Source: an uncultured Armatimonadota bacterium (GTDB taxonomy: Bacteria > Armatimonadota > Fimbriimonadia > Fimbriimonadales > Fimbriimonadaceae). From it: 64,000 bases of DNA. Location of the stretch: NCBI GenBank assembly GCA_903927025.1, contig CAIYLG010000014.1, positions 62,001 to 126,000 of the forward strand. The letters are read 5' to 3'. The notes beneath the pieces were generated by a model. The model made no database searches, was not told the origin of the DNA, and saw only the letters and a program-made list of their open reading frames with translations. Position 1 is the stretch's first letter. Each line of letters starts with the position of its first letter. The translations under genes and the position numbers were made by a program. Shown in pieces: positions 39,181 to 47,526 of this stretch.

Positions 39181-39313
39181 GTGACTAGTTTGGCGCAATC
39201 GACTACGAGATAGAGTGAGTGAATCAAGTGAGAGCTGATGTGACCAGCGCTTTCTGCACTGGCAATTTCCCTCGGAAAATACCGTCGGGTGAACTTTCAC
39301 TAGAAATTGAAAG

Positions 39314-39319
39314 TAAACT
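39314..39319 (+). promoter_or_regulatory. Candidate -10 box (TAAACT) for mqnD
   Basis: TAAACT ends 7 bases before GTG 39327 and supports that codon as the start. Confidence 0.5.
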
Positions 39320-39326
39320 GATTTCC

Positions 39327-40187
39327 GTGAGTACAGCATCTACCTCAAAGATTCGCCTGGGCCATTCTCCAGACTCTGACGACGCCTTTATGTTCTGGGG
39401 ACTAGCAAGCGGAGAGGTGGACACCCACTACGAATTTGAGCATATCCTGAGGGATATCCAGACGCTGAACGAGTGGGCGTTTGAAGGCCGGCTTGAATCT
39501 ACAGCCGTCTCAGTTCACGCTTTTGCCTATGTAGCAGACAAATACGCGATGCTTCGGCATGGCGGTTCGTTTGGCGATGACTACGGACCCATGATTGTGT
39601 CCAAGAAGGACTTGACGCTTGAAGAGCTCAAGGACACCGTCATTGCCATTCCTGGACTACAGACTTCCGCTTTCCTTGCACTAAACCTATTCTTTGCGGA
39701 CAAGTTCGGTCCCGATGTGAAGCCCAAGTTTGAAGTCGTCAATTTCGATGACATCATTCCCGCCGTTCAAGAAGACAAGTATGTTGCCGGGCTTATCATT
39801 CATGAAGGCCAACTGACCTACGAGCGAGACGGCTTGAAGCTGATCGCGGACATGGGCGTATGGTGGAAAGCGCTTACCGGTCTTCCTCTCCCGCTAGGAG
39901 TCAACCTCGTCCGGAAGGATCTCGGCCCAGAGGCTGTGACTGAAATTAGCCGATGCATGCGAGAATCCATTTCCGCCGGTCTCACCCACCGCGAGAAGGC
40001 TCTGGATTACGCGCTTCAGTTTGCGAGAGGGATGGACGTTCCCACTAGCGATGAGTTTGTTGGCATGTACGTCAACGAGCGAACGCTCGATATGGGAGAT
40101 GAGGGTGTGGCCAGTATCCGGCTGTTCCTCAAGCGGGGAAGCGAGATCGGTCTCGTTCCAGCTCTCGAAGTCGAAGTAGTCGATTGA
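39327..40187 (+). CDS. mqnD: 1,4-dihydroxy-6-naphthoate synthase (futalosine pathway)
   Basis: From GTG 39327 the protein has 286 residues. It has the type II periplasmic-binding fold used by MqnD, with KIRLGHSPDSDDAFMFWGL near the N-terminus, ILRDIQTLNEWAFEG, SVHAFAYVADKYAMLRHGGS and AGLIIHEGQLTYERDG. MqnD converts cyclic de-hypoxanthine futalosine to 1,4-dihydroxy-6-naphthoate in menaquinone synthesis. The other mqn genes are not in the window. The longer frame from 39219 has no family match; GTG 39327 gives the normal N-terminus and is 8 bases after a TAAACT box. Confidence 0.88.
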   Translation: MSTASTSKIRLGHSPDSDDAFMFWGLASGEVDTHYEFEHILRDIQTLNEWAFEGRLESTAVSVHAFAYVADKYAMLRHGGSFGDDYGPMIVSKKDLTLEELKDTVIAIPGLQTSAFLALNLFFADKFGPDVKPKFEVVNFDDIIPAVQEDKYVAGLIIHEGQLTYERDGLKLIADMGVWWKALTGLPLPLGVNLVRKDLGPEAVTEISRCMRESISAGLTHREKALDYALQFARGMDVPTSDEFVGMYVNERTLDMGDEGVASIRLFLKRGSEIGLVPALEVEVVD

Positions 40188-40215: not shown

Positions 40216-42069
40216 TTACTTCGCGGCGGTATTTGGATAGAGGTGGAGTCCCTTCAGCTTCACCCATTCGTAGTCCCGTACTTCCAATTCATATCGGCTG
40301 ATGGAGTCTGGATCGGCAAAGCAAGTTGCAGTGATCAAGGGCCGTCTCAGTTTTCGAAGTTTGTAGCCCCAGCCGTCGTCGGAGACGAGAAGGGTAGGAA
40401 GCTTTCCGTCTTTGTCGTAAGCAGCCAACCGCCACTCCTTGCCCATTGCTGACTGTGGCAATTCAAAACTCAGTTCGCCAATTGGTACAACCTCATCTTT
40501 CTCCACTAATGTGCCCTTGGCGTCCGTATGTCCGGATTTTTGATGGGTCTGCCTTGTTGTGACCTTCAGACGGAAATTGCCCTTACCGGATTCGTACTCT
40601 GCAACCTTGTGAAACGGTCCGACTCCGAGCGGCACTTCCAGGTCAGCTTTCTGAAAGCGCTGTGGCATTTCGAATTGGTAGATGCAGTTAAGTGCATTGG
40701 GAGAACCTCCACTCGACCCACCGTTGGAGAGTCGGCCTGCAAGCTTGGCGGGTCGAAACATTGGGTTGGGTCTAAGGGTAGTGGTGATATTGTCCGGCAT
40801 CCCCATGTAGTTGAAGCAAACTGCCACCCGGTTTTTGCCGTTATAGAACTGAGCATTTCCAGGACTGCCTCCCCCGTACGTGGATCCGTGAGCCTTGGGG
40901 GAGTCGTGGCTCGGTGATCCATCCGGGTTCCAAACTGGGAGATCGCTTGCTGATCCAGGCCCTATAAAGAGAACCTTAACCTTAACGCCGTTGCTAAAGC
41001 TTGCTGTGTAGGTTCCGGGAGTGCTTGTGTCCTCTTCTGCCGACGTAGGTGTCGAGTGAAGCTTCAAAAGAGAGGTTGTTGGGGTGCAGACTGCCAAAGT
41101 AATGCCTATCGTGCAGAAGCAGAACCCGATGCCGGCTGCGACCTTCCGGCTGGAGTGGGTGCGATTTCGGTTTGGTGCGAGGATGTTTTTCATGCGGTCT
41201 GAGATTCCTTGGCGGCGGGCCATGCCGACAGCTGCGGCGTTTGAAGTGTCGAGGATTGAGGCGAACGAGAGAAGTTCGGAGGCATAGGCGCTCGCTGTGA
41301 ATCCAGCGGCGAGTACGGCGTTATCGGCACACTCTTCCGCAGTTGCCCTTAGCTTTGCAGTGAGCAGCCATGCGGCAGGGTTGAACCACTGCAGGGCAGT
41401 GAGCGCGACCCCGGCCGTCTGCCAGATCCAATCTTGACGCTCCAGGTGGGACCACTCGTGAAGGAGGACTGCCTCCAGTCGAGGGGTGGGCCACGATTCG
41501 ACATCAGCCGGCAGCACGACGACGGGGCGAACAAATCCCAATGCGATCGGGACTCGCAGCTCCGTCGCGCTTGTCTTAAGCGTGATACGAGAACCATAGT
41601 AGGGCTCGGATAATCGGCAAATTCGCCTAACACTGGCAAGTGAAATTAGCCACCGAATCACGTAGAACCCAACACCTAAGAAGTAGGCCAAGCAGAGGAT
41701 CCTAAAGTAGTTTGGGCCGTACTGAGGCGTTAATCGCAATGGTTCCGATGCCTCTTTCAGAGGTGCACCACCGACGAATTCGGTATTGGGATTCACTGAC
41801 GCGGGATTGAGCGAACTTCTCGACGCATTCCAAATCTGAACCCTGTTGGCGGCTGGGGTTGACGTGGCAGGCAAGACTGGCAATGAGATTCGTTGACCTG
41901 CGGCCAGCAAAAACCCACTTAGGAGGCAGGTCGCCAGCGAACAGCGCCAGAGCAGGTTGTGGGTGGAGGCAGGCGCTTTGCGCAGAGCCCAGCAAATGAG
42001 TGCAGTTGTTGACGAGACCACCGCGGTTCGAACCGTCCAGCCAAGCAAGAAGCCAAAGAGCGGTGTCAT
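40216..42069 (-). CDS. BlaR1-like M56 membrane metalloprotease with novel C-terminal domain
   Basis: The 617-residue protein has membrane helices near residues 8-28, 40-57, 120-145 and 310-328. The M56 zinc motif HEWSH is at residues 204-208 (VLLHEWSHLERQDW), and EECADNAV at 245-252 gives the third ligand. In BlaR1 and MecR1 the C-terminal domain is a penicillin-binding sensor; here residues 353-617 are instead a beta-rich domain (TYTASFSNGVKVKV, VWNPDGSPS, RPAKLAGRLSNGG, KEWRLAAYDKDGK, LEVRDYEWVKLKG) without the SXXK motif of beta-lactam sensors. The same domain occurs in the next two genes. It overlaps blaI by four bases. Confidence 0.85.
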   Translation of the reverse strand: MTPLFGFLLGWTVRTAVVSSTTALICWALRKAPASTHNLLWRCSLATCLLSGFLLAAGQRISLPVLPATSTPAANRVQIWNASRSSLNPASVNPNTEFVGGAPLKEASEPLRLTPQYGPNYFRILCLAYFLGVGFYVIRWLISLASVRRICRLSEPYYGSRITLKTSATELRVPIALGFVRPVVVLPADVESWPTPRLEAVLLHEWSHLERQDWIWQTAGVALTALQWFNPAAWLLTAKLRATAEECADNAVLAAGFTASAYASELLSFASILDTSNAAAVGMARRQGISDRMKNILAPNRNRTHSSRKVAAGIGFCFCTIGITLAVCTPTTSLLKLHSTPTSAEEDTSTPGTYTASFSNGVKVKVLFIGPGSASDLPVWNPDGSPSHDSPKAHGSTYGGGSPGNAQFYNGKNRVAVCFNYMGMPDNITTTLRPNPMFRPAKLAGRLSNGGSSGGSPNALNCIYQFEMPQRFQKADLEVPLGVGPFHKVAEYESGKGNFRLKVTTRQTHQKSGHTDAKGTLVEKDEVVPIGELSFELPQSAMGKEWRLAAYDKDGKLPTLLVSDDGWGYKLRKLRRPLITATCFADPDSISRYELEVRDYEWVKLKGLHLYPNTAAK

Positions 42070-42449
42070 CGACCCTCCTCTTCGGCTTTATCGATGAGCC
42101 GTCTTAGCTCCACGATATCCCGAGCCGTCAGTTTGTCTTTCTCTTGATCCAGCAATGTAGACACTGCGGCGGAGATGGACCCTCCGAAGAAGGTGCTTAA
42201 GAGTCGAGCGGTTTCCACTCGCGCCACTTCATCCCGGGGACGAGTTGGAAGGTAGGCGAACTTGCCTGGTTCTTCCACGTGGCGAAGAAATCCTTTGGCC
42301 TCTAGGGAACGAAGGTGGACGCGTATTGCCGAGTTAGAGGGCTTGCCCGGAAGTAGTTCTTCCAGCTCACCTGACCCAATACTTCCGCGTTCATAGGCCA
42401 GATCCATGATCTGGTGTTCGCGTTTCGAAAGATTTCCGCCGAGCTTCAT
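42066..42449 (-). CDS. BlaI/MecI family transcriptional repressor
   Basis: The 127-residue protein has the winged-helix DNA-binding domain of the Penicillinase_R family (LSKREHQIMDLAYERGSIGSG, then SNSAIRVHLRSLEAKGFLRHV) and a C-terminal dimerisation helix (LLSTFFGGSISAAVSTLLDQ). In BlaI the M56 protease triggers cleavage of the repressor between these parts. It starts 4 bases before a 30-base inverted repeat that should be its own operator, and overlaps the protease gene by ATGA, so both are made together. Confidence 0.88.
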   Translation of the reverse strand: MKLGGNLSKREHQIMDLAYERGSIGSGELEELLPGKPSNSAIRVHLRSLEAKGFLRHVEEPGKFAYLPTRPRDEVARVETARLLSTFFGGSISAAVSTLLDQEKDKLTARDIVELRRLIDKAEEEGR

Positions 42450-42452
42450 AAG

Positions 42453-42482
42453 ATATCTCCGTTAGTATTCTAACCGAGATAT
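42453..42482. promoter_or_regulatory. Operator-like inverted repeat and promoter of the blaI-M56 unit
   Basis: ATATCTCCGTTAG (42453-42465), TATT, then CTAACCGAGATAT (42470-42482) form 13-base arms with one mismatch. On the minus strand it contains TAGAAT (42472-42467) as -10 and GGAGAT as ribosome binding site, so a bound repressor would block both. The half-site differs from the TACA/TGTA boxes of staphylococcal BlaI. Confidence 0.75.
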
Positions 42483-42556
42483 TCAGGATTGCCAAACAAT
42501 TTTTTGAAATGCTTTGACAGTCGGCGCCGGGCATTTCTCTAGGGAAAAGAGGGAAG

Positions 42557-43489
42557 CTAGCGGTTGGGCTTCAGGCGAACATTCTTGAACCTGACCCATT
42601 CGTAGTCTCGGACTTTGAGAATATAGGTCAGCTTTGCGCCTGGGTAAGTTTCACACCAGCCAAAGCCGTCTCGAACCATTTCGTCTGGTCTCGAAGATGC
42701 CAATCGGTCCCCAACACCAGAAATTCTTTGCGGCTTGCCGTTCGAATCCACGGCAGATAGGCTCCATTGCTTTCCTTCTACGCTTCGCGGAAGTTCGAAA
42801 TCAAGGTTTTTCGTTTCAGCGGTGCGCTCAACTTGATGGATCTTTCCATCCTTGCCCTGCTCGTTGACGCGATCCGTTCGCTTATAGGATTGCTCTTTAA
42901 TCTTCAGCCGTTTCGCACCCTTGCGGCTTGAGGCGACCTCGCGAAACTCACCCATTCCGACCGATGCTTCGAAATCTGACTGTGTGAGGTTAGTAGGAAG
43001 GTGGAATTTGTACAAAAAGGTCATCGCTTGGTTCGACCCGATCGCATAGCCACCTTGACAAACGAGCCCCGCCAACTTTGCGGGAAGAAAGGCTGTGGTT
43101 ATTGAGTTTGGTTGGGGTTTGGGAAGCCCCTTGTACTCAAAGCAAACGGTGAATCCTTCGGTGAGGATTCTTCCATTGCGACCATCCATAACTGAATTTG
43201 GCCCATCTTTCGTCGGAGTTCCATCAGGGTTCCACGACGGAATGTTGTCTGACATCGCGTTACCCACAAATCGGATCCGAACCTCAGCGCCGTTTTTGAA
43301 CTTTGCCGTGTAGGGGCCAAGTTTGCATCCGACCGATGTTGGGGGAGGTGTGCAGGACGCGGCTACCGCAATGAGCGTCCAGGTGCCGGTCAAAACAGGA
43401 ACGAGCCACTTTCCGGGCCTTAGATGCTGGTAGAGGAATTGACCGCATCTAACTTGAGATCTCAAATAATTCAGAAGTAGGTTCATCAT
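42557..43489 (-). CDS. Lipoprotein-like paralogue of the M56 C-terminal domain
   Basis: The 310-residue protein has a hydrophobic segment at about 30-47 ending in AVAASC, which could be a lipobox or an anchor. From about residue 57 it matches the C-terminal domain of the M56 protein: PYTAKFKNGAEVRIRFVG, SWNPDGTPTKDGP, LPAKLAGLVCQGG, FELPRSVEGKQWSLSAVD and LKVRDYEWVRFKNVRLKP. It has no protease. The residues just before the domain (CTPPPT) also resemble the M56 protein's CTPTTS after TM4, which suggests descent from a truncated copy. AGGA lies 6 bases before its ATG; it follows the next paralogue after 45 bases. Confidence 0.75.
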   Translation of the reverse strand: MMNLLLNYLRSQVRCGQFLYQHLRPGKWLVPVLTGTWTLIAVAASCTPPPTSVGCKLGPYTAKFKNGAEVRIRFVGNAMSDNIPSWNPDGTPTKDGPNSVMDGRNGRILTEGFTVCFEYKGLPKPQPNSITTAFLPAKLAGLVCQGGYAIGSNQAMTFLYKFHLPTNLTQSDFEASVGMGEFREVASSRKGAKRLKIKEQSYKRTDRVNEQGKDGKIHQVERTAETKNLDFELPRSVEGKQWSLSAVDSNGKPQRISGVGDRLASSRPDEMVRDGFGWCETYPGAKLTYILKVRDYEWVRFKNVRLKPNR

Positions 43490-43534
43490 TGAGTTCCTGG
43501 ACGGAGCTGTTGTTGTCAGACGTCAACCGGCTAC

Positions 43535-44434
43535 CTACTTTGCTGAAGAGGTCTCACTCGGTGTCAGGTGGATATCCTTCACTTTGAGCCACTTGAAGTC
43601 TCTTGCTGACAGTTCAAGTCGCTTGATTTGTTTGGCATCGCACTGGCACTGTGCATGCCATTGCCTTTCGCTTCCGGGTTCGTCGGGATTCTCGAAGCCG
43701 CCAAATATCACCCATGTGCGGACCGGCTTTCCGTCCTTGTCGAAAGCGCGAAGGCACCATTGCTTGGTGGCGATGGCTGCAGGAACTTCAAATGTGATTT
43801 CGGTGTAGTCGTTCAGCGAGTAAATCGATTCAGTCTTCCCGTTGTAAGTTCGGTACGAAGTTTGCTTCTTGTGCTTCGAAGTTAAGTTGGCCTTCAATTC
43901 ACCTTCACCGTCAACATTTGAAGCCACCACACGAAAGTTGCCGCTTCCGATCGCGACTTGGAGATCAGCGGTCTTGAGCCGATCTGGCACGGAAAATCCA
44001 TAGCAGCTCACCGAGTCAGTAGAGGAAAATCCACTTCGCGATCCTCCCTGATTTAGCTGTCCCGCTAGCTTGGCGGGAACGAGCGTATTTCCAAAAGCGA
44101 ATGGTTCAATGCCCGCTGCATCGATGCCAGACAGCTCAAAGCAAATTCTAACTTGGCGACGCTTTGATAATTTGCCTTCTGAAGAGTACGTCGTGTGGAT
44201 ATTGTCGGGACCATCTGAGGTGGCGCTGCCGTCGGGTGCCCAGACCTTTAGTTTGCTGGATTCACCTGGACCGACAAAGCGAACTCGCACTTGCTGACCG
44301 CCGGGCAACTTGGCTGTGTAGCTGTCCTGGTTTGCAATCTTGGCTACAGCGAGGGAAGTTGCCGCAACCGCAAATGCGAGGGTGCTCGCAATTGTGCAGA
44401 GACCGATTTTAGTGTTTTGCCTGAGAGACTTCAT
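43535..44434 (-). CDS. Exported paralogue of the M56 C-terminal domain
   Basis: From ATG 44434 the protein has 299 residues. The signal sequence or anchor spans about residues 9-31 (LCTIASTLAFAVAATSLAVA). The rest is a third copy of the domain: SYTAKLPGGQQVRVRFVG, VWAPDGSATSDGPDN, LVPAKLAGQLNQGG, FEVPAAIATKQWCLRAFDKD and LSARDFKWLKVKDIHLTP. A cluster of cysteines (AQCQCDA) is specific to this copy. The frame is open upstream to 44542, but that part is not conserved in the two paralogues and has no ribosome binding site. It heads a two-gene unit with the lipoprotein-like copy. Confidence 0.72.
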   Translation of the reverse strand: MKSLRQNTKIGLCTIASTLAFAVAATSLAVAKIANQDSYTAKLPGGQQVRVRFVGPGESSKLKVWAPDGSATSDGPDNIHTTYSSEGKLSKRRQVRICFELSGIDAAGIEPFAFGNTLVPAKLAGQLNQGGSRSGFSSTDSVSCYGFSVPDRLKTADLQVAIGSGNFRVVASNVDGEGELKANLTSKHKKQTSYRTYNGKTESIYSLNDYTEITFEVPAAIATKQWCLRAFDKDGKPVRTWVIFGGFENPDEPGSERQWHAQCQCDAKQIKRLELSARDFKWLKVKDIHLTPSETSSAK

Positions 44435-44459: not shown

Positions 44460-44465
44460 ACTATA
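44460..44465 (-). promoter_or_regulatory. Candidate -10 box (TATAGT) for the 43535-44434 gene
   Basis: TATAGT ends 25 bases before the ATG, with TTGGCT 18 bases upstream as a possible -35. No copy of the blaI operator was found here. Confidence 0.3.
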
Positions 44466-44592
44466 CGAAACAGTTTGTCTTCAAGCCAAATGTTTTCTGC
44501 TTTCAGCCTCGCAAGTGAAAGCCCGGAACCCGCTACGAACATGCTTCACGGAATTGAACAAAGCTCTCCCACTTGTTCGAATGAGCACCTAG

Positions 44593-47526
44593 CTACTTCT
44601 TTGCCGGAACCGGCTTTTCCAAATCAAGACCCATCGTTTTGCCCTTCTGCGTGGCCGGGACTCCCTTGGACATCCAAACCGGCATCGGCTGATCCATCAG
44701 GTAGTGGTCAAAGAATTGGGACAGCCGAATCGTCCAGTCCTTTCGGTTCTTTCGTTCGACGATGTTGTGATCCTCACCGTTGTATGAGACCATCCAGGCT
44801 GGCTTGCCCAACCTGCGGAGGCCGGAGAAAAGTTCGATCCCCTGGGTGAAGGGCACCGCTCCGTCCTTGTCGTTCTGCATCATCAGAAGCGGAGTCTCGA
44901 CCTTGTCCAGCCAGAAGAGTGGAGAGTTCTCGAGGTAGCGAAGTGGCTTCTCCCAGATTGAGCCGCCAATTCGGCTCTGGCCGTGCTCATATTGCCCCTC
45001 ACGAAGAATGCCGGTGCCGTAGCGAATGCCGCCGTAGGCGCTGAACATGTCCGCGACGGCGGCGCCAGAGCAGGCGCACTTGAATAGGTTTGATTGGGTT
45101 ACGAGGTAGGCAACCTCGTAACCGCCCCAACTCTGACCCTGAATACCAAGGCGGGAAGGATCCACGTAGCCTCGATTCACGATGCTGAGAACGCCAGGGA
45201 TGATCGCGCTTAGCGAGCTCTCTCCGGGGTAGCCAGTTTTGTAGGCAATGTCCGGCACAAACATCACGTAGCCGTTGCTGGCAAAGTAGGTGAGATTTAC
45301 GGTGCTCGCACTCGGAGCCGGCGAGTGATAGGTGTTCAAGCTGTCTGAAAGCCGTTCGTAGAAGTAGGTGATCATTGGATACTTCTTGTCATAAGAGAAG
45401 TTTTCCGGCTTGATCAAAATCCCCTGTAGTCTCTGGCCATCTGCTGATATCCAGTTCACCAACTCGGTGGTGCCCCAGTTGTATTGAGTCTGCTGAGGGT
45501 TGGCATTGCTCAGCTTCTTGGCCTCGCTGAAATCTGCCTTAGCGACCCAAACATCTGGGAATTCAACAAAGTCTTGTTGGGTGAACCAGATTCGGTTGCC
45601 CGTTTTGGACTTCACCGGGCTCGAATAGGTCTTGTCGCCCGAGATCAATCGGACCATCGAGTCGACGCCCTTGAAGGCATCAAAGCTGATTATCGCGGCT
45701 TTCTTCGAATCCGGATCAAATGACGAGAGCAGAATTGGCTTGGCAAGATCTACAAAATGAGCCTCTGGGTCGAGGTTCAGATACCGAAGCCGAGTTCCGC
45801 TCATGAGCCCAGTTCTAGCGGTGAGGTTTTTTGGTCCCGATTTTCCAGTTGGGTCGATAGCCCAGATGTCGTGGGCATCGTAAATCAAAAGCTGGGAATC
45901 GTCCTTGGTCCAGCCTGCGACTCCGTAGGCGCCTGGGTTGCTTGGGGTGTCCTCAATTTCATTGAACAGCGGGGTTCCTGTCTTGAATCGAAGGGTGACC
46001 CGAGAGGCAAGGTTGATGACGAAGTAGTCTCGCAGAACTGGATCGTAAGCGTAGAGATACTTCGCATCGGGTGAAAACGTTAGGTGAGCTTCGCTCTTTC
46101 TGAGCAGGAATTTGCTTTGGCCACTCTCCATGTCGATGAGAGATTCGTCGCTCCGATCAGCGTCCCAGGATGCCTGAAGTCTGTAGTTCAGGTCCGAGGA
46201 TCCAAGCGCCCACTTGCCCTCTCCGCGCGCGCTGACGGTGACAGATTGCCTGGTCTCTGTTTCGAGTTGAAGCACCTTCTTGGTTGCCAGCGTGTAGGCC
46301 GCCATGTAGCTTCTATTTCTCTCGGCTGTCGCCTGAAGAATCTGCTGGGGCATGATCTGCTTGTCCTGCCAGTTCCAGATGTCCACGCTCACTTTTTCGC
46401 TGTCGGGCGTGTCGTCTTTCTTTTCCTCAGCCGGGCGAGGGATGGAACCGAAGAAGACTCGGGATCCTTTCTCTGAGAATGTGATGGCTCCGTGGTCACT
46501 GATAACCCAACCCCTGGTGAGCCCAGCGGTGTCCGTCTTAACGACGACTTCCGCCTTGTCCTTGCCGGCAGGGGAGAAGTAAAGCGCCAGGTCAGCAGGC
46601 TTTGAAGGCTTGGGTGCTGCGGCAGGAGCTTCTGCTTCGCTTTCCTCGCCGTCATCTGCTGGCTTGGCTGGCTTGGCAGTTGAGGGGAGAGTGGCCGCAG
46701 CTAAGAATGCAACAGCCTTTGTTTCATCGCTCACAGCGATTTGGGCGATCTTCGTCTTAGCCTTGAAAAGAGCGTGAACGGCGCCTTTGGCAAGGTCCCG
46801 AACATACACTCCATCCTCTTTGCCTTCTTTGGAGATGATCGTGTAGACGAGGATGCTGCCGTCTTTTGGCATGAGGGCCTCGCCAACGTTTTCGAGCTTC
46901 TGCTCAACTCCGGTCGCCAAGTTTCGCAGAACCATAGGGGTTCCGGTGGCAGGAGCAGCCGCTCCAGCTCCGCCTGCGCGACCCGCTCCGCGTCGGGTGC
47001 CTCCCGCTGGACGTGTGGGAGCGGCTGTTCCGGTCGCGGCCGGAGCCGGTGTTGCCGCCTTGGGTGGTACCGGGCGGTAGGTCAGCCAGCCCTTATCCTC
47101 TTTTGAAAGCTGAAATGAGGTGACTGCGTCGATCTTCGTCTGCTTCCCGTCCGCGAGGTTGAGAATCAGCAGCGCATTCTTTGGCATGTCTGCGGCTGCG
47201 ACTTTGTCTTTAGTTGCCTTCTTTACATCTGCTAGCGCCGGCACGATGCTGGCAACCAGGAAATGTGAGTCCGCACTGAATTGGACGGTGCCGCCGCGTG
47301 CAAACTCATAGTGCCTCCCATCGGTCAGCGACTTAACCTCTACTTGGCTGTCTCCCTCCTGTGGGGCCACGACATAGACAATCCAGTTTCCGTCCGCGCT
47401 GAACGTGGTTCCGCGGATGGTTTTCCAGGAGTCGTAGACCGAGTGGTCAAGCGGCTTCTTTTGGGCCAGACCAAGGGAACTGAGCGCGATGATGGCGCTA
47501 AAGACGAGAAGCGAATGAGTTCTCAT
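44593..47526 (-). CDS. Secreted S9-family (prolyl oligopeptidase/DPP-like) peptidase
   Basis: The 977-residue protein has a signal peptide (residues 1-21, ending GLAQ). The N-terminal two-thirds is a beta-propeller-like region with repeated FSADGNW, FSPDAKYLYAYD and SWDADRS segments. The C-terminal hydrolase has the serine nucleophile in GIQGQSWGGYEVAY, the Asp in NDKDGAVPF and the His in YNGEDHNIVERKN, in the correct order. An Ala/Gly/Pro/Arg-rich insertion lies near residues 163-200 (TRRGAGRAGGAGAAAPA), probably a flexible loop in the propeller. It is likely an exported peptidase for extracellular peptides. Confidence 0.85.
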   Translation of the reverse strand: MRTHSLLVFSAIIALSSLGLAQKKPLDHSVYDSWKTIRGTTFSADGNWIVYVVAPQEGDSQVEVKSLTDGRHYEFARGGTVQFSADSHFLVASIVPALADVKKATKDKVAAADMPKNALLILNLADGKQTKIDAVTSFQLSKEDKGWLTYRPVPPKAATPAPAATGTAAPTRPAGGTRRGAGRAGGAGAAAPATGTPMVLRNLATGVEQKLENVGEALMPKDGSILVYTIISKEGKEDGVYVRDLAKGAVHALFKAKTKIAQIAVSDETKAVAFLAAATLPSTAKPAKPADDGEESEAEAPAAAPKPSKPADLALYFSPAGKDKAEVVVKTDTAGLTRGWVISDHGAITFSEKGSRVFFGSIPRPAEEKKDDTPDSEKVSVDIWNWQDKQIMPQQILQATAERNRSYMAAYTLATKKVLQLETETRQSVTVSARGEGKWALGSSDLNYRLQASWDADRSDESLIDMESGQSKFLLRKSEAHLTFSPDAKYLYAYDPVLRDYFVINLASRVTLRFKTGTPLFNEIEDTPSNPGAYGVAGWTKDDSQLLIYDAHDIWAIDPTGKSGPKNLTARTGLMSGTRLRYLNLDPEAHFVDLAKPILLSSFDPDSKKAAIISFDAFKGVDSMVRLISGDKTYSSPVKSKTGNRIWFTQQDFVEFPDVWVAKADFSEAKKLSNANPQQTQYNWGTTELVNWISADGQRLQGILIKPENFSYDKKYPMITYFYERLSDSLNTYHSPAPSASTVNLTYFASNGYVMFVPDIAYKTGYPGESSLSAIIPGVLSIVNRGYVDPSRLGIQGQSWGGYEVAYLVTQSNLFKCACSGAAVADMFSAYGGIRYGTGILREGQYEHGQSRIGGSIWEKPLRYLENSPLFWLDKVETPLLMMQNDKDGAVPFTQGIELFSGLRRLGKPAWMVSYNGEDHNIVERKNRKDWTIRLSQFFDHYLMDQPMPVWMSKGVPATQKGKTMGLDLEKPVPAKK

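Follow-up and report, generated by a model that had tools for sequence, protein, structure and literature searches.

The window, that is the whole stretch of 64,000 nucleotides analysed here, contains a BlaI/M56 regulatory locus accompanied by two genes, D1 and D2, whose products correspond to the C-terminal domain (D domain) of the M56 protein. All four genes are on the minus strand and are transcribed in the order D1, D2, BlaI and M56, with gaps of 45 bases between D1 and D2 and 107 bases between D2 and BlaI, and an overlap of 4 bases between BlaI and M56. The genes and protein features were located as follows.

39219..40187, plus strand: flanking gene of the VitK2_biosynth (menaquinone biosynthesis) family (PF02621), a synteny anchor outside the system
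40216..42069, minus strand: M56 (BlaR1-like) receptor of 617 aa, a membrane metalloprotease with a C-terminal D domain (PF05569, zinc motifs)
40219..41028, minus strand: C-terminal D domain of M56, approximately residues 348-617, a predicted extracytoplasmic sensor without SxxK (homology, motif scan)
41086..41145, minus strand: last transmembrane helix of M56, about residues 309-328, preceding the extracytoplasmic domain (hydropathy peak 310-328)
41446..41460, minus strand: HEWSH zinc motif, M56 residues 204-208
42066..42449, minus strand: BlaI-type repressor of 127 aa, overlapping the M56 start by 4 bases (PF03965)
42557..43489, minus strand: D2, a stand-alone D domain of 310 aa with a hydrophobic N-terminus (homology)
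43535..44434, minus strand: D1, a stand-alone D domain of 299 aa with a signal-like N-terminus (homology)
44593..47526, minus strand: flanking S9 prolyl oligopeptidase-like gene (PF00326), a synteny anchor outside the system, with the same neighbour in the sister locus L020

An alternative start of D1 lies upstream at 44542, and the last M56 helix was placed at residues 309-327 in a low-confidence full-length model (pLDDT 46). The N-terminal region of D2 contains VAASC, which we take to be lipobox-like. The position given for HEWSH in an earlier note on this DNA, residues 204-208, was verified in the 617-aa protein; the three D domains, described there as tandem copies, are not strictly tandem, since BlaI separates D1 and D2 from M56.

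The M56 protein matched PF05569 with an E value of 2e-22 and 80.1 bits (curated cut-off 31). Its zinc motifs, H204EWSH and E245ECAD, are spaced by 41 residues, with D249 as the third residue, which agrees with H201EXXH, E242XXXD and D246 given for BlaR1 (PMC9834060) and supports a core of the same BlaR1 type in the window. BlaI matched PF03965 (E 4.5e-20), and its family profile matched the MecI/BlaI structures 1sd6/1okr (E 3e-20) and 1sd4 (E 2e-17). The BlaI cleavage site Asn101-Phe102 (PMC9834060) is absent from the window BlaI, where the aligned residues are T98-L99 and the hydrophobic residue after the cut is kept. By these family tests, the locus is a BlaR1-like switch with predicted protease and repressor-cleavage activities. 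At E <= 0.001, M56 was matched 12 times in the window genome; 11 of these matches exceeded the Pfam cut-off, and the C-termini varied. Compared with the sister species, the M56 of the window was 39% and BlaI 82% identical; among reciprocal-best matches between G000 and G028, the M56 proteins were 36-44% and the BlaI proteins 65-82% identical, M56 diverging far faster. Fast evolution of M56 was considered as a special property of the window locus and was dropped as evidence, because it is general among the reciprocal-best M56/BlaI matches compared.

No SxxK was found after residue 340 of M56, no transpeptidase or beta-lactamase family was matched by the genes scanned with Pfam and NCBIfam, and the NCBIfam blaR1 model gave M56 49.9 bits, below its cut-off of 400. 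Lacking SxxK, the locus is not a classical penicillin sensor, in line with the earlier note, which saw no penicillin-binding sensor at this BlaI/M56 locus. Relatives of BlaI and M56 control beta-lactam resistance in Staphylococcus (PMC9834060), and an unusual penicillin-binding domain sensing beta-lactams might be imagined here as well; set against the missing SxxK and family matches and against a D domain predicted, with moderate confidence, to be all-beta, such a reading is hardly credible.

Inspection of the intergenic regions revealed three candidate regulatory sites.

42453..42482, minus strand: candidate BlaI operator, a dyad (ATATCTCGGTTAGAATACTAACGGAGATAT, 30 nt) in which the -10 box lies (1/200 shuffles as good)
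42467..42495, minus strand: BlaI-M56 promoter-like site TTGGCA-17-TAGAAT (consensus match 10/12)
44460..44489, minus strand: D1-D2 promoter-like site TTGGCT-18-TATAGT, without palindrome (consensus match 9/12)

Both promoter calls (10/12 and 9/12) are consensus matches alone, of which 1.5 would be expected by chance in the stretch; an equivalent BlaI-M56 site was read from the sister locus, where the core of the operator is also kept as GGTTAGAATTCTAACC. At up to 1 mismatch the palindrome is unique in the window genome, and no significant dyad was found upstream of D1. Since the palindrome is absent there, D1 and D2 are not visibly co-regulated with BlaI and M56. The switch might conceivably have D1 and D2 among its targets, as genes under BlaI repression that are co-induced with it, and in another genome (G134) the corresponding copies follow M56 in the same orientation and could be co-transcribed; with the only palindrome of the window genome at BlaI and none upstream of D1, we consider this quite improbable. 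It was also noticed that several BlaI genes of G000 (L001-L010) carry differing palindromes near the start codon, and that 4 of eight other upstream regions had a palindrome that fewer than 10 of 200 shuffles equalled. Differing palindromes of this kind could keep paralogous switches separate.

Pairwise comparison revealed 34% identity over 297 aa between M56 and D1 (E 2e-46), 33% between M56 and D2 (E 1e-45) and 29% between D1 and D2 (E 4e-37), and a three-way alignment of about 260 residues contained many invariant columns. These regions are thus homologous, as had been claimed from the shared motifs, all of which were present in the alignment except that W.K.K reads W.R.K in D2. The domain had been called unfamiliar, and indeed D1 and D2 had no significant match in Pfam or NCBIfam, nor had the D domains of the other members scanned a match in Pfam. 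A model of the D domain was all-beta at moderate confidence (pLDDT 66.8, pTM 0.63) and had no Foldseek match at E <= 0.001; with VIA-align, the best Z was 5.1, and the rows were largely Ig-like, with Z about 5 or less over residues 140-246, which at this quality of model speaks neither for nor against a particular fold. A sequence search of solved structures gave a single chain, 7dm0, a biofilm-associated surface protein (E 1e-5); it was rejected, as it covered a stretch of only 53 positions and was gone with a broader profile.

The HMM search proposed in the earlier note was run with a nine-member profile, which detected the D domain in 22 of 291 Armatimonadota genomes, and with a 40-member profile, which detected it in 34 of the 291, at M56 loci and beyond them. 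The members were 1) fused to M56, 2) stand-alone and exported, with a signal-like start, or 3) tandem. Among 40 members, the tryptophan of W.PDG was invariant, and three G columns and one R column were nearly so. Two M56 proteins (L085:3954-6800 and L072:4208-6667) carried two D domains per chain. No match was obtained in a plasmid collection searched with one pair of D-domain members, and a single scan of genome contigs with two peptide patterns yielded one relative, again from Armatimonadetes and of the same genus. Most of the stand-alone D domains found, in many genomes, had no M56 nearby and lay in unrelated gene contexts. The D domain is therefore not confined to M56 loci and can work without the receptor.

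In a 50-row tree, the D domains of the window M56, D1, D2 and the sister M56 formed one clade (100/99), which was nested in a clade otherwise consisting of M56-fused domains (97/98). The same four grouped together again in a reduced-set tree (99/99), and a single clade of all stand-alone copies was rejected (p-AU 0.0001). These results show that D1 and D2, both without the protease, originated within the M56-fused branch and, being nested there, derive from part of an M56 receptor and were not recruited from elsewhere. A duplication later than the divergence from the sister species was favoured in the large tree (99/81) but lacked clear support in the smaller one (74/66), the alternative not being rejected (p-AU 0.28). 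The N-terminus of D1 aligned with the last membrane helix of M56 (CTIASTLAFAVAATSL and CTIGITLAVCTPTTSL, respectively), with about 1-8 of 1000 shuffles as good, whereas that of D2 aligned no better than shuffles. The earlier claim that both short copies start at the last M56 helix thus holds for D1, in which the membrane-helix segment is, on this alignment, kept as a signal-like start, but found no support in the comparison of D2. The catalytic-helix arginine of M56, R292, had no clear counterpart in D1. A catalytic-helix motif common to all copies was also tried and rejected; the HMM match was weak for D1 (34/400 shuffles) and D2 (13/400) and no better than controls, and the motif was clear only in the copy of G136 (HMM) and in copy A of G134 (pairwise).

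The sister locus (L020, on the same contig as G028:C106) consisted of the S9 peptidase gene, an acetyltransferase gene on the opposite strand, BlaI, M56 and the VitK2_biosynth gene, with both D1 and D2 absent from this syntenic BlaI-M56 locus. The sister species therefore manages without them, which counts against a role of D1 and D2 as modulators. In two further species of the genus (L105 and L107; G029 and G026), the S9 and VitK2_biosynth genes were separated by about 1 kilobase, an interval that contained a 296-aa gene and nothing matching BlaI or M56. The adjacent genes scanned, S9 peptidase and VitK2_biosynth, belonged to neither a toxin nor an effector family, leaving the "immunity-like partner" of the earlier note without specific support.

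When divergence down to 34% identity was simulated under neutrality, none of the 400 copies escaped stops, the mean being 9.5 stops per copy. Since neutral copies at such divergence would carry stops, D1 and D2 seem to be kept by selection; together with their origin in M56, the open frames bear out the earlier proposal that two truncated copies were retained. Turnover of partial duplicates, with D1 and D2 simply not yet lost and without a selected role, would fit their lineage-specific occurrence, including absence from the sister locus, and the fact that copies are found in a minority of M56 loci (see below). It is of low probability, considering that the reading frames are intact, that the motifs are conserved at 29-34% identity and that none of the 400 simulated copies stayed open.

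Each neighbouring gene without a protease was compared with the C-terminal half of its own receptor (E <= 1e-5) in 91 distinct M56 proteins from 90 stretches, most of them from the genus of the window. An own-locus copy was found at 6 of 91-92 M56 loci, in a sample that is biased because the window and eleven stretches entered it for holding the D domain; at about 86 of the 92 no copy was detected. As a control, these 6 of 92 were set against 35 distinct pairs with a hit among 8188 cross-locus comparisons (0.4%), many of them to the same copies, so that adjacency of a copy to its own receptor was about 15 times commoner than between loci. All adjacent copies were on the strand of the receptor, and several unrelated sensor types were represented. 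Domain-only genes beside M56-BlaI pairs, which the earlier note had suggested looking for in related genomes, thus recur.

Besides the window, the six comprise one locus each in G134 and G136, a second locus of the window genome and two loci of G030. In G134 the M56 gene is accompanied by two copies with 34-37% identity, and an incomplete BlaI reading frame lies where the contig ends. In G136 (L087:5021-7048, plus strand), a 675-aa gene directly downstream of BlaI-M56 carried the last-helix segment of M56 in two copies, with a D domain after the first of them, and the adjoining M56 frame was interrupted. At the second BlaI-M56 locus of the window genome, where the sensor is pilin-like and different from D, a gene of 247 aa (L146:7786-8529, minus strand) copies the receptor of that locus without its protease, at 61% identity across 211-225 aa. 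Of the two G030 loci, one has CarboxypepD_reg repeats and the other is a weak case; among the six, the match in L221 was weak (25%, E 8e-7). Separately, in L199:1535-4180, the frame after a 456-aa M56 gene, 403 aa long and in the same orientation, matched the sensors of other M56 proteins; this receptor may be split or interrupted. Recurrence of the copies in Armatimonadota suggests that these bacteria tune a BlaI/BlaR1-type switch with spare sensors.

The main alternative is that D1 and D2, although derived from the receptor, are now independent exported binding proteins without a signalling role, lying nearby by descent. Many D-domain proteins do stand alone in unrelated contexts with no M56 nearby, the promoter-like site of D1-D2 is separate and lacks the BlaI palindrome, and D1 and D2 have diverged from each other about as much as from M56. 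Nevertheless, adjacency recurs with several unrelated sensors at about 15 times the cross-locus frequency, each adjacent copy being on the receptor's strand, and we regard independent binders as somewhat unlikely. We tentatively favour, at slightly less than an even chance, D1 and D2 as sensor-only modulators, either decoys or partner subunits, of the BlaR1-like receptor in this one-component switch.

In BlaR1 (PMC9834060), the outside sensor changes state, the inside protease cleaves BlaI and the operator is freed. By analogy, the M56 sensor would detect a ligand or stress beyond the membrane, the M56 protease would then be activated inside, and BlaI would be cleaved, freeing its own operator at 42453-42482. 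On the outer side of the membrane, D1, predicted to be exported, and D2, possibly a lipoprotein, would interact either with this ligand or with the receptor itself and, as decoys or partner subunits, would set the activation threshold. The BlaR1 sensor domain can be cut free by signal peptidase (PMC9834060), which provides a precedent for a free sensor; a separate sensor-only product serving as decoy or partner subunit is thereby plausible. A broader proposal, that protease-less copies form a recurring layer in Armatimonadota in which truncated subunits join full-length M56 as co-receptors or dominant-negative brakes, appears unlikely; such subunits would provide a membrane helix and a sensor in trans, as the domain-swapped dimer of BlaR1 would allow.

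BlaR1-type switches are known mainly through beta-lactam resistance. In the window, the repressor-protease core of this type bears another sensor, and sensor-only copies of the receptor recur beside such cores. If D1 and D2 tune the switch, they would offer a natural tool for studying communication between sensor and protease in M56 and would represent a new bacterial way of setting the threshold of a proteolytic switch. No description of adjacent sensor-only copies of M56 receptors was found in the literature searched, which covered few subscription journals, and this is weak evidence of novelty.

The locus resembles BlaR1/BlaI and MecR1/MecI of Staphylococcus and Bacillus in having a BlaI-family repressor with an M56 protein, equal HEXXH/EXXXD spacing, a last membrane helix followed by a C-terminal extracytoplasmic domain, and a palindrome over the promoter. 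It differs from them in its sensor, an uncharacterised domain without SxxK, in its two extra sensor-only genes, and in having T98-L99 at the BlaI position given as Asn101-Phe102 (PMC9834060). An extra gene modulating a switch of the BlaI/M56 type, as proposed for the window, has a parallel in MecR2, the mec accessory anti-repressor (PMC3406092); by the description there, MecR2 promotes proteolysis of the repressor, whereas D1 and D2 are predicted exported sensor copies. A comparable setting is found in other Armatimonadota M56 proteins with CarboxypepD_reg or pilin-like sensors, which are unrelated in sequence to the D domain but likewise show varied C-terminal modules, some with adjacent protease-less copies.
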